This document shows positions 1,906 to 7,670 of a stretch of DNA of 64,000 nt, piece after piece. The translations under genes and the position numbers were made by a program. The stretch comes from Lacibacter cauensis. Its GTDB lineage: Bacteria; Bacteroidota; Bacteroidia; Chitinophagales; Chitinophagaceae. Position 1 is the stretch's first letter. Every line of letters begins with the position of its first letter. The stretch covers positions 383,953 through 447,952 of the forward strand of contig NZ_VLLE01000002.1 of NCBI RefSeq assembly GCF_007830055.1. The letters run 5' to 3'. Below the pieces are notes generated by a model that made no database searches, was not told the origin of the DNA, and saw only the letters and a list, made by a program, of their open reading frames with translations.

Positions 1906-3198
1906 ATGATAAAATCACTTGTACGTTCTGTACGCTACTCTGCAGATAGAACCACAGAGACAGGAAGACACAAAGGAACACGAAGGAAATTCTTTGTGCT
2001 ACTTACTGTACTTAGTGCAATCGTGGTTCCTGCTGTTGCACAAATTGAATACGCCAAACAAATGGCTGCTACCATCATGAAGCAATACAAAGATTCAATG
2101 GTGGTGAAAAAGTATGCCAGTCATCTGGAACAGGATAAATTGCCAACAGGTGATCGTCCGGCCAACTGGAATTATGAAATAGGCGTTGTGCTGATGGGCT
2201 TTGAACGTTTGTGGAAAATGACGAACGATCAAACCTATATCGATTATACCAAACACATCGTTGATCACTTTATTACCGCTGATGGAAAGATCAGAACCTA
2301 TGTGATGGATGAATACAACAGCGATAATATTCCTCCCGGCCGTCAACTGTTGCGTTTACATCAATTGTATAAAGACGAGAAATATAAAACTGCTGCACAA
2401 ACATTGCGTGATCAGATCAGTATTCAGCCACGGAATAAGGTGGGCGGCTTTTGGCATAAGCTGAAATACCCTTCGCAAATGTGGCTCGATGGTTTGTACA
2501 TGATCGAACCGTTTTATGCAGAGTATGCAGTGGTAAATAAGCAACAACAGGATTTTAACGATATCATCAACCAGTTTGTGTGGATGGGAAAATATAGTCG
2601 TGATACAAAAACAGGTTTGCTGTACCATGGCTGGGATGAAAGCAAACTGCAAGGCTGGGCGAATAAACAAACAGGTACTTCACCGGAGTTCTGGAGCCGC
2701 AGCATGGGTTGGTATATGATGGCATTGGTGGATGTGCTGGATTTTATTCCTGCAACTCATCCAAGAAGAAAAGAATTGATTGCAATATTGAATCGTCTCT
2801 CAACTGCCATTGTAAAATTCCAGGATGCAAAGAGTGGTGTGTGGTGGCAGGTAACTGATAAGGCGAATAAGGAAAAGAATTATCTCGAATCATCGGGTAC
2901 GGCCATGTTTGTGTTTGCACTGGCAAAGGGCATCCGCATGCATTATTTGCCTGCAACATTCAATGCACCTTTGCAAAAAGCCTACAAGGGCATGATCAGC
3001 CAATTTGTAACAACCGACGCCAACGGTCAGTATCATTTTATTCAGGCTGTTGCAGGTGCCGGTTTGGGCGGCATTCCTTATCGTGATGGTACCTATGAAT
3101 ATTATGTGAACGAACCGAGAAGAGATGATGATCTGAAAGCGATCGGGCCATTTATCCAGGCATGTATTGAAATGGAGTTGATGAAAAAGAAAAAGTAA
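1906..3198 (+). CDS. GH105-type unsaturated rhamnogalacturonyl hydrolase, secreted
   Basis: The 430-residue protein has the (alpha/alpha)6 barrel sequence pattern of family GH88/GH105 (YteR/YesR type), which removes 4,5-unsaturated uronic acids from products of polysaccharide lyases. The likely general acid/base Asp is D195 in [33 protein letters not shown] near 265 is also a family signature. ATG 1906 is chosen over the upstream TTG because it leaves a basic n-region, the hydrophobic stretch [13 protein letters not shown] and a VAQ cleavage site. That signal peptide lies entirely within an inverted repeat (1950-2028). The gene ends two bases before the GH2 gene, which supports an operon. Exact substrate, rhamnogalacturonan I or another uronate-containing glycan, is inferred from the neighbours. 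Confidence 0.88.
1950..2028. repeat. Inverted repeat copy encoding the GH105 signal peptide
   Basis: The left arm begins AACCACAGAGACAGGAAGAC and the right arm ends CAATCGTGGTT. The arms are more diverged than in the two downstream copies, but the translated right arm keeps the same hydrophobic register ([13 protein letters not shown]). Confidence 0.7.
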
Positions 3199-3199
3199 A

Positions 3200-6553: not shown

Positions 6554-6557
6554 TAAG

Positions 6558-7670
6558 GTGAACCACAGAGACACAAAGACACAGAGATACACGAAGTGTG
6601 TATTGTTTTTTCTCTGTGTACTCTGTGCCTCTGTGGTTACTTCACAGGTGCCGCAGGAAATAATGCAGAAAGTATATGAAGAAGTAAAAACGCCTTTCAA
6701 ATACGGGTTGGTTGTTACACCCGAAAATGAGACAAAGAAAATTGATTGTCCATCCGTCTTCCGCAAAGGAAATTCCTGGTATATGACCTACATCCAGTTC
6801 GATGGGCGTGGTTATGAAACATGGATCGCAAAAAGTAAAGATTTGTTGGATTGGACAACACTCGGCAAACTCATGAGTTTTTCTGATACCACTGATTGGG
6901 ACAATAATCAGAAAGCAGGATACATTGCTTTGCAGAATACAAAATGGGGCGGTAATTACAAACTGGAAAAATACCAGAATAAATACTGGATGAGCTATAT
7001 CGGCGGAAGAGATCGTGGTTATGAATCCGGCCCATTAGCAATCGGTATTGCCAACACAACCAATGATCCAATCAAACCACATGAGTGGAACCGGTTGTCA
7101 AAACCCGTTTTAAGTTCTACCGATACAGATGTGCGTTGGTGGGAAAACAGGAAATTATACAAGAGCACTGTTATTCGTGATAAAGACAAAACACTCGGCA
7201 GCGAGTTCATCATGTACTACAATGCCAATGGCGACAGCAGCGGCAATAAACCCAAGTGGCGCTGGTTCGAACGCATCGGCATGGCCGTGAGTGATGACAT
7301 GGTCAACTGGAAACGTTACCATGCCGATCCGGTGATGGAACATGGTGTGGGTATTACCGGCGATGCCGTGCTGCAAAAAATCAACGATGTGTGGGTGATG
7401 TTTTATTTTGGTGCTTTCTGGGAAACAAGAAAGAATGAAACATTTAACCGGTTTGCGTGCAGTTACGACCTGGTGAACTGGACGGATTGGAAAGGTGAGG
7501 ATCTCATCAAATCATCCGAACCGTATGATGCCAAATATGCACATAAAAGTTTTGTGGTAAAATGGAAGGGTGTGGTGTATCATTTCTATTGCGCCGTTGA
7601 TAAGAAAGATAACCGAGGAATAGCTGTGGCTACTTCTGTTGACAAAGGAAAGAGTAAATTGCAGTTTTAG
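6558..7670 (+). CDS. Five-bladed beta-propeller glycosidase, GH43/GH117/GH130-like, secreted
   Basis: The protein (370 residues from GTG 6558) has repeated beta-propeller strand motifs: DCPSVFRKGNSWYMTY, GYETWIAKSKDLLDW, RIGMAVSDDMVNWKRY, GDAVLQKINDVWVMFY and FACSYDLVNWTDW. Such blades, each opened by an acidic residue, are shared by GH43, GH117 and GH130 type enzymes; I cannot place it in one family. GTG 6528 is an alternative start that would overlap the GH2 gene by 26 bases. GTG 6558 gives a tidy signal peptide whose h-region (CVLFFLCVLCASVV) is encoded by the right arm of an inverted repeat. Position between GH2 and GH106 suggests that it trims a side-chain sugar of the same glycan, for example arabinose or galactose (inference). 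Confidence 0.75.
   Translation: MNHRDTKTQRYTKCVLFFLCVLCASVVTSQVPQEIMQKVYEEVKTPFKYGLVVTPENETKKIDCPSVFRKGNSWYMTYIQFDGRGYETWIAKSKDLLDWTTLGKLMSFSDTTDWDNNQKAGYIALQNTKWGGNYKLEKYQNKYWMSYIGGRDRGYESGPLAIGIANTTNDPIKPHEWNRLSKPVLSSTDTDVRWWENRKLYKSTVIRDKDKTLGSEFIMYYNANGDSSGNKPKWRWFERIGMAVSDDMVNWKRYHADPVMEHGVGITGDAVLQKINDVWVMFYFGAFWETRKNETFNRFACSYDLVNWTDWKGEDLIKSSEPYDAKYAHKSFVVKWKGVVYHFYCAVDKKDNRGIAVATSVDKGKSKLQF
6561..6638. repeat. Inverted repeat copy encoding the beta-propeller enzyme's signal peptide
   Basis: The left arm (6561-6586) begins AACCACAGAGACACAAAGAC; the right arm (6612-6638) ends TCTGTGCCTCTGTGGTT. This is the best preserved of the three copies. The right arm is read as FLCVLCASVV. Confidence 0.88.

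Follow-up and report, generated by a model that had tools for sequence, protein, structure and literature searches.

A dispersed palindromic repeat has very probably become, on repeated occasions, the predicted signal peptide (SP) of secreted enzymes in Lacibacter cauensis and related species, as judged from sequence comparison. We identified the repeat in a 64,000-nucleotide stretch of the L. cauensis genome (contig NZ_VLLE01000002.1, positions 383,953 to 447,952, forward strand; hereafter the window), where copies with a left arm ACCACRRAGRCACRRAG... and a right arm ...CTYYGTGYCTYYGTGGT lie at the starts of three adjacent genes. In the mechanism we propose, a copy of the repeat, or its right arm alone, would come to lie behind the start codon of an exported protein, ahead of its mature part, and so be translated. 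The left arm would then supply a polar, basic n-region, the right arm the hydrophobic h-region, and a few codons past the right arm a c-region ending in A or S (G in one species) before a Q. One copy may be able to work in more than one frame, because no frame has many stop codons and the element would be polar and then hydrophobic in either orientation.

Allowing up to 3 mismatches, we found six matches to the arm ACCACAGAGACACAAAG in the window, compared with a mean of 0.16 in shuffled sequence, and six matches were reached in none of 100 shuffles. A first-pass annotation, made from the letters of the window, had placed three imperfect inverted repeats at the starts of three glycan-degradation genes, and this was borne out, with the limits given below, which differ by about one base from those it gave (an arrow marks the predicted cut).

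1906..3198, + strand: GH105/GH88-type (glycoside hydrolase, GH) unsaturated glucuronyl hydrolase gene, an open reading frame (ORF) with a Pfam Glyco_hydro_88 match (E 1.8e-101)
1951..2027: palindrome copy 1, 77 nt, the most diverged; the right arm codes for the predicted h-region, then PAVA↓Q
3200..6553, + strand: GH2 (LacZ-type beta-galactosidase-like) gene, start ATG 3200; NCBIfam matches below the cut-offs
3224..3297: palindrome copy 2, 74 nt; the right arm codes for the predicted h-region, then QTAFA↓Q
6558..7670, + strand: third gene, glycosidase-like, start GTG 6558 (or GTG 6528)
6562..6637: palindrome copy 3, 76 nt; the right arm codes for VLFFLCVLCASVV, then TS↓Q

The candidate start of the GH105 gene is ATG 1906, with TTG 1852 open too. 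The third gene matched part of the NCBIfam model GlucurArabfur (2.8e-158, below the cut-off at 528.8 of 1800 bits) and fell slightly under the cut-off for Pfam GH130 (9.2e-6). All three mature proteins are predicted to begin with Q, at bases 2041, 3314 and 6645, respectively. The left arms code for a basic polar stretch and the right arms for a hydrophobic core in all three genes, and the right arms share a common frame, as the annotation had stated. Its reading of the left arms as n-regions held in so far as the basic polar stretch is present throughout, but the peptides had been listed in scrambled order, and copy 3 uses a different left-arm frame (NHRDTKTQR) from copies 1 and 2 (RTTETxRH). 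The observation that copy 1 has diverged in DNA but kept its hydrophobic register proved correct: the predicted RNA folds of copies 1, 2 and 3 were -20.5, -32.3 and -38.2 kcal/mol (z -2.5, -5.9 and -6.8), so that copy 1 has the weakest fold, and its right arm still codes for the h-region.

The strongest evidence that the repeat came to provide putative SPs is the comparison of orthologues in seven species of the genus (G000, which is the L. cauensis genome of the window, and G001, G003, G004, G007, G010 and G013). The SP of the GH105 enzyme is repeat-coded in G000 and G001, whereas G003, G013 and G007 have conventional SPs, MKKILALMLLVIAFNANA↓Q or MKQILVLLMLVVAFNSNA↓Q; the mature start, QIEYAKQ, is identical in both sets. 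The stretches compared from G004 and G010 yielded no GH105 gene. At C1:929k, a GH43 gene likewise carries the repeat SP in G000 and G001, while its orthologues in G003, G010 and G013 have three differing conventional SPs (a second, more distant GH43 locus of G001, L143, with an ordinary-looking N-terminus, was not counted), and a GH2 gene at C1:318k has a clear repeat SP in five of the seven species, a degenerate one in G010 and a conventional one in G007. Thus, the comparison with orthologues lacking the repeat that the annotation had proposed for GH105 and GH2 enzymes revealed conventional SPs at the same mature junction in all three of these families; the direction of each swap is one that we infer. 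The repeat SP is present in six of the seven species in the window GH2, in all seven in the third window gene, and in all seven in a gene at C1:899k, there in distinctly different sub-types.

The frame in which the right arm is read was found to vary even among orthologues of one gene. The C1:345k gene is read in a W frame (..FVTLWQSSSA↓Q, ..VSVSLWFNSSA↓Q; ..TLW/SLW..) in G000, G001, G004 and G013 and in a VV frame (..VLCVLCASLVQPSFA↓Q, ..VLCVSVVQSSFG↓Q; ..SLV/SVV..) in G007 and G003, G010 being ambiguous. A tree built from five operon genes joined G013 with G007 as sisters (support 0.99) and placed G003 outside this pair; because these sisters differ in frame, parsimony implies at least two frame changes at this locus if the operon tree is the species tree. 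A single fixed frame is therefore rejected, since two right-arm frames are in use; a third was seen only in two distant cases (L232 and L170, below). Neither is an intact palindrome required: the right arm alone codes for the SP core at C1:929k (G000, G001) and at C1:345k (G000, G003, G004, G007, G013), and in those species the 200 nt preceding the mature start contain no left arm, the closest match having 5-6 mismatches in 16.

Three further features of these orthologues were noted. The third gene of G003 (L082, ~9640-9705) carries an extra AATCCGAAGCTTTAGCGTAGGATT-like mini-palindrome in frame within the right arm, giving a longer, still hydrophobic predicted SP. The GH2 orthologue of G010 (L086, ~6400-6470) takes its SP core from a different T-rich sequence, which is preceded by an A-rich partner (AAAAGTCAAAAATAAAAAG..CTTTTTACTTTTTACTTTT) and may be a further repeat acting as an SP; we do not claim a second repeat family as SP donor, as the string ..FFYFLLFTFHFSQA occurred at that one gene only (two overlapping loci) among the loci compared. 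The GH2 orthologue of G007 (L062, L066) is split into two matches, the second with an in-frame stop codon.

The quality of the predicted SPs was scored with a home-made rule (charge, a 10-residue core without polar residues, and small residues at -3 and -1) applied to 32 chosen N-termini, among them conventional controls and 6 of the 8 distant long frames described below. Under this unspecific rule 30 of the 32 scored as having the features of a Sec SP (basic n-region, h-region, small residues at -3/-1), with repeat-coded N-termini at 4.12-5.98 and four conventional orthologues at 4.25-6.11. Repeat-coded SPs are thus predicted, on these features, to direct export and to be cleaved. The next in-frame starts past the repeat (2062, 3317 and 6648) gave no SP for GH105 and the third gene and a poor one (2.6) for GH2.

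To place the window copies in context, we catalogued the repeat across the 4.95-Mb L. cauensis genome and found 53 sites, 52 of them distinct (one was doubled by overlapping stretches), with at most 2 mismatches to a 17-nt degenerate arm. Thirty-eight were good sites (at most 1 mismatch), and many sites consisted of a single arm. Genus-wide, matches occurred in 13 of 14 genomes. With many short palindromic copies, mostly outside genes, the repeat resembles a miniature inverted-repeat transposable element (MITE) or a repetitive extragenic palindromic (REP) element. Seven of the good sites code for a gene N-terminus, and all seven N-termini look like SPs by hand classes that were not blind:

three window genes: GH105, GH2 and the glycosidase-like gene
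C1:318.5k: GH2, start uncertain
C1:345.5k: MGH1-like GH
C1:899.4k: gene without a Pfam family
C1:929.2k: GH43

Another 20 of the 38 good sites precede a gene with a likely start downstream, and the N-terminus was of export or membrane type in 3 of these 20 genes; we take the proteins behind such sites to include aldo/keto reductase-, aminotransferase-, SufS- and TrpA-like enzymes. The remaining 11 have no clear gene downstream and were omitted from the comparison of 7 with 20, as were the 15 catalogued sites with 2 mismatches. Exported-type N-termini thus made up 7/7 of the repeat-coded class and 3/20 of the class with the repeat upstream (Fisher p = 1.4e-4, on the same unblinded hand classes), a result that bears on the annotation's own refuting condition, that repeats stand at gene starts no more often than by chance. 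An automatic count placed 5 of the 38 good sites wholly within an ATG-started coding-like frame, all five among the seven repeat-SP genes. A genus scan for ATGA plus the arm returned 16 rows, of which 4 stayed open for more than 300 codons beyond the arm; these were all repeat-SP genes or their orthologues, and the frames in rows L296 and L298 (123 and 160 codons) were not taken as genes. A scan of 394 family genomes returned three rows from outside the genus, none of which opened a long frame, and a reversed control pattern gave 0 in every genome row.

These counts bear on whether the repeats are 5' untranslated elements only, with the true starts downstream and the open frame through the repeat accidental. 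The arms are stop-poor by composition, and several L. cauensis genes (e.g., L053, L054 and L122) are open through an upstream repeat despite a likely downstream ATG, as such an explanation would predict. We consider it very improbable all the same, because the downstream starts of the three window genes give no good SP, because the repeat-coded peptide in the swap genes ends where the conventional SPs of the orthologues end, and because exported-type N-termini are so unevenly divided between the two classes. The prospect that the real starts lie downstream, which the annotation had named as a refuting result, is accordingly not likely.

The composition of the arms offers a rationale for a predicted SP that tolerates changes of frame. 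The right arms contain 7% A and the left arms, as their complement, 7% T, which leaves few TAA, TAG or TGA stops in any frame; being palindromic, the element reads as polar and then hydrophobic in either orientation. Among 56 right-arm hits (7 of which overlap another hit), 47 were open in each frame, with mean hydropathies of 1.26, 1.85 and 1.29 in the three frames, compared with -0.03 for random 33-mers from the same loci; 46-49 of the 56 left arms were open, with hydropathies of -1.7 to -2.3 and a net positive charge. Hydrophobicity in all three frames was seen in 14 of the 56 arms, 15 of 3000 random 33-mers and 231 of 1120 shuffled arms. Since shuffled arms behave nearly alike, frame tolerance is a matter of composition and not of exact order. 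The annotation had expected repeats to stand at gene starts in one fixed frame; that part failed, as two right-arm frames are used, yet the use of two frames leaves the underlying idea unrefuted because all three arm frames are hydrophobic on average.

Hydrophobic codons are T-rich at the second position, and any SP will consequently look somewhat like the arm. Together with the near-equal hydrophobicity of shuffled and real arms, this could be taken to mean that ordinary SPs converged on the repeat by chance through their T-rich codons. Such convergence is scarcely credible to us: the arm matches are at least 17 nt long and have a palindromic partner upstream in the three window genes, the six window matches far exceed the 0.16 expected, the reversed control pattern gave no match in any genome row, and the same element occurs in many non-coding places.

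Copies at non-coding positions of the same operon served as controls for retention. The spacer between the two genes upstream in the operon holds a full repeat in G000 and G001, a half repeat in G004 and another small palindrome in G003, G004 and G010, and there is almost no spacer in G013 and G007; non-coding copies thus come and go, with presence/absence polymorphism at orthologous sites. Across the operon in the seven species, the repeat was present at 15 of 19 SP positions and at 6 of 28 non-coding positions (Fisher p = 2e-4, uncorrected for shared ancestry), the latter figure representing four non-coding positions in seven species, one of which (upstream of the SBF gene) lacks a copy in G000. 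The right-arm peptides were hydrophobic in 16 of 16 comparisons; random substitutions, equal in number to those observed, would be expected to keep the hydrophobic core in 5.9, and the difference suggests that the repeat-coded protein sequence is under selection. This substitution test, like the folding of 14 sequences considered below, leaves out two orthologues, the G003 third gene (extra insert) and the G010 GH2 (other sequence). In other species the intergenic gaps of the same operon also hold a second palindrome family (TTTCACGCAAAG..CTTTGCGTGAAA; L082, L083, L084, L152, L156), and in G001 and G003 it lies in an open frame directly upstream of the C1:318k GH2 repeat SP.

The retention of copies could instead reflect their use as RNA hairpins, in translation coupling or mRNA stability between cistrons, with SP function secondary. 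Copies 2 and 3 fold strongly, the hairpin is kept to some extent in orthologues, and the short distances from the upstream stop to the start, 1 nt for GH2 and 4 nt for the third gene, are like those of coupled genes (the distance is 10 nt for GH105). As a primary explanation this is nonetheless unlikely, given that the C1:929k and C1:345k genes lack the left arm, and hence such a hairpin, yet have the same kind of SP, and that non-coding hairpins of the same operon are not kept. The existence of right-arm-only genes indicates that the hairpin is dispensable for the putative SP; within this operon an RNA role may exist alongside it, because two window hairpins are strong and partly kept in orthologues. 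An Rfam scan of window positions 1800-7800 gave no match at the gathering score, the only sub-threshold match being to copy 3 (25 bits vs 99).

The three repeat-SP genes are flanked by genes for an SBF-type transporter and a GH106 enzyme, each gene being associated with a half copy:

7676..7701, + strand: half copy consisting of the left arm, within the GH106 5' untranslated region
1854..1890 (approximately), + strand: left-arm-like half copy coding for the C-terminal tail of the transporter (SBF gene, 600-1895)

The GH106 gene has an ordinary SP of its own, MKRFSTYCLLYLIAFFVSNHLVA↓Q. Because the second half copy codes for the transporter tail, the same repeat extends a C-terminus too. Elsewhere in the window, identical terminator-like hairpins (AAAAAAGCCTCACCAAACGGTGAGGCTTTTT) were noted at 57537-57567 and 58243-58273, ~700 nt apart.

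How the SP-coding copies were placed is a separate question. They may have spread mostly by recombination or gene conversion between copies at existing SPs and not by insertion of a mobile element, an account that we regard as a real, if the less probable, possibility. Orthologous SPs differ in repeat subtype (..LCVLCVSVV.. vs ..LSVLSVFVV..) and in frame, as recombination would allow, and no transposase was found with the repeat, REP-associated tyrosine transposases (RAYT) being the only kind tested. Set against this, whole palindromes are present or absent at non-coding sites, with almost no spacer left in G013 and G007, so that complete elements are gained and lost; insertion, rather than recombination between copies, would on that evidence be the step that placed the repeat. 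A RAYT (Y1) transposase as the mover was rejected: such transposases are encoded in 13 of 14 genus genomes, but the arm was present in 1 of the 30 RAYT loci scanned, at 2 mismatches, and the RAYT gene of L. cauensis (L095) is flanked by different GGCTCC..GGAGCC palindromes, as judged by eye. The first-pass suggestion of a dispersed or mobile palindrome acting as a ready-made secretion leader is thus sustained by the 38 good sites, the 13 of 14 genomes and the swaps, though without the fixed frame and without need of the intact palindrome, and mobility itself is suggested by presence/absence.

Arm-coded N-termini were also found in other phyla, with predicted SPs in Verrucomicrobiota, Acidobacteriota and Planctomycetota. 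A scan of a Genome Taxonomy Database (GTDB) genome set for ATGAAR plus a perfect right arm returned at least 119 stretches, and 80 loci were examined. Among the matches listed there were 82 start-plus-arm instances, of which 8 opened more than 200 codons past the arm:

Verrucomicrobiota: two sulfatases
Acidobacteriota: an M1 peptidase-like protein, plus a similar protein without a Pfam hit
Planctomycetota: a PQQ/BamB-like protein
Nitrospinota: a protein with weak Porin_O_P similarity
Planctomycetota, CG frame, less certain: L232 (PPC domain) and L170 (no Pfam hit)

None of these eight had a left arm within 160 nt by the strict arm pattern, although L232 has a diverged CCACAAAGAACACAAAG run upstream. 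Also among the matches listed, metagenome-assembled genomes of Sulfuritalea and Propionivibrio held ten near-identical copies reading MKHGKHLFFLCVLCASVVQLRF and then a stop (L176, L197, L202, L204, L208, L209, L211, L224, L227 and L230, with L166 partial); in these the start codon lies within a dispersed repeat.

Several observations weigh against the proposal that the repeat became an SP. Most good sites in L. cauensis (31 of 38) encode no SP, 3 of the 13 matching genus genomes carry one match each, and of the 394 family genomes just 5 (6 rows) contain the strict start-plus-arm pattern. Among the matches listed from the wider scan, 74 of the 82 start-plus-arm instances open at most 50 codons past the arm, as is expected of copies between genes. 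The SP rule is unspecific, with 19 of 40 window ORFs (at least 180 codons) reaching 3.6, membrane proteins among them; it gave no score to two repeat-type peptides (the G001 GH105, on account of one Asn, and the Nitrospinota case), and for two third-gene peptides it chose a cut other than TS↓Q or KS↓Q, favoring LC↓ASV over TS↓Q in the peptide of copy 3. Folding of 14 window-gene sequences shows the hairpin to be partly kept (z -2.8 to -8.5), the "retained" h-regions may partly reflect replacement by other repeat copies, and the retention and Fisher tests carry no correction for phylogeny and use classes assigned by hand.

More broadly, stop-poor, strand-asymmetric palindromes could be portable, frame- and orientation-tolerant SP cassettes that were taken up many independent times in several phyla, and so constitute a general route to SP gain and turnover, a generalization toward which we lean somewhat. 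If it holds, a copy landing directly upstream of a mature domain could create or replace a secretion signal. SPs turn over and their origin is seldom seen; the repeat would represent one concrete way in which proteins may change or gain secretion signals, and because the genus orthologues show donor sequence, swap and frame change, this source of new SPs is now directly testable. A palindromic repeat would also gain a concrete coding role, and gene callers should be aware that N-termini such as FLCVLCVSVV resemble repeat-derived junk yet are sometimes real.

Among the literature titles and abstract openings consulted, none described this repeat as an SP donor; a search for the literal repeat strings returned a single match, in a paper on fish environmental DNA, and the portion of a study of Porphyromonas gingivalis repeats that was available (PMC5771137) contained nothing on repeat-derived signal peptides. 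In the accessible part of a survey of SP gains in Enterobacterales (PMC5952966), an ISEScan search found no transposable elements nearby; a search of that type would presumably miss a repeat such as ours, because it is short and without a transposase. Our repeat is like the REP elements of RAYT in consisting of short dispersed intergenic palindromes and unlike them in that its arms are all but absent from RAYT loci and differ from the flanks of L095. The closest precedent is that of Delihas (2007; PMC2759123), which, in the parts available, describes the Yersinia palindromic repeat RU-2/YPAL as part of the predicted SP of YPO1552, whose relatives in other genera carry unrelated SPs, mentions a second gene, YPO2495 (SignalP probability 0.722), and reports another repeat that, read in a shifted frame, forms a membrane domain. 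The two cases share a palindromic repeat in a predicted SP and relatives with unrelated SPs; they differ in that one clear gene is described there, as far as those parts extend, whereas here there are seven genes in one genome, recurrence in other species, within-genus swaps, two frames and a rationale in composition. Rickettsia palindromic elements (RPE; Ogata 2000) are, according to the excerpted text of a review (PMC10969869), ~150 bp long and inserted in frame in protein genes, their contribution to proteins being called unexplored. Our repeat shares with them a position in frame within coding genes and differs in being ~75 bp (74-77 nt) or a single arm, in lying at the N-terminus and in having a definite predicted role, export. 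The precedents, as represented in these partial sources, thus amount to isolated or related examples (one predicted SP containing a Yersinia repeat, and the Rickettsia elements), and the present case is a more fully documented variant of a known phenomenon: recurrent, spread over several species, accompanied by orthologue swaps and provided with a frame-tolerant rationale.

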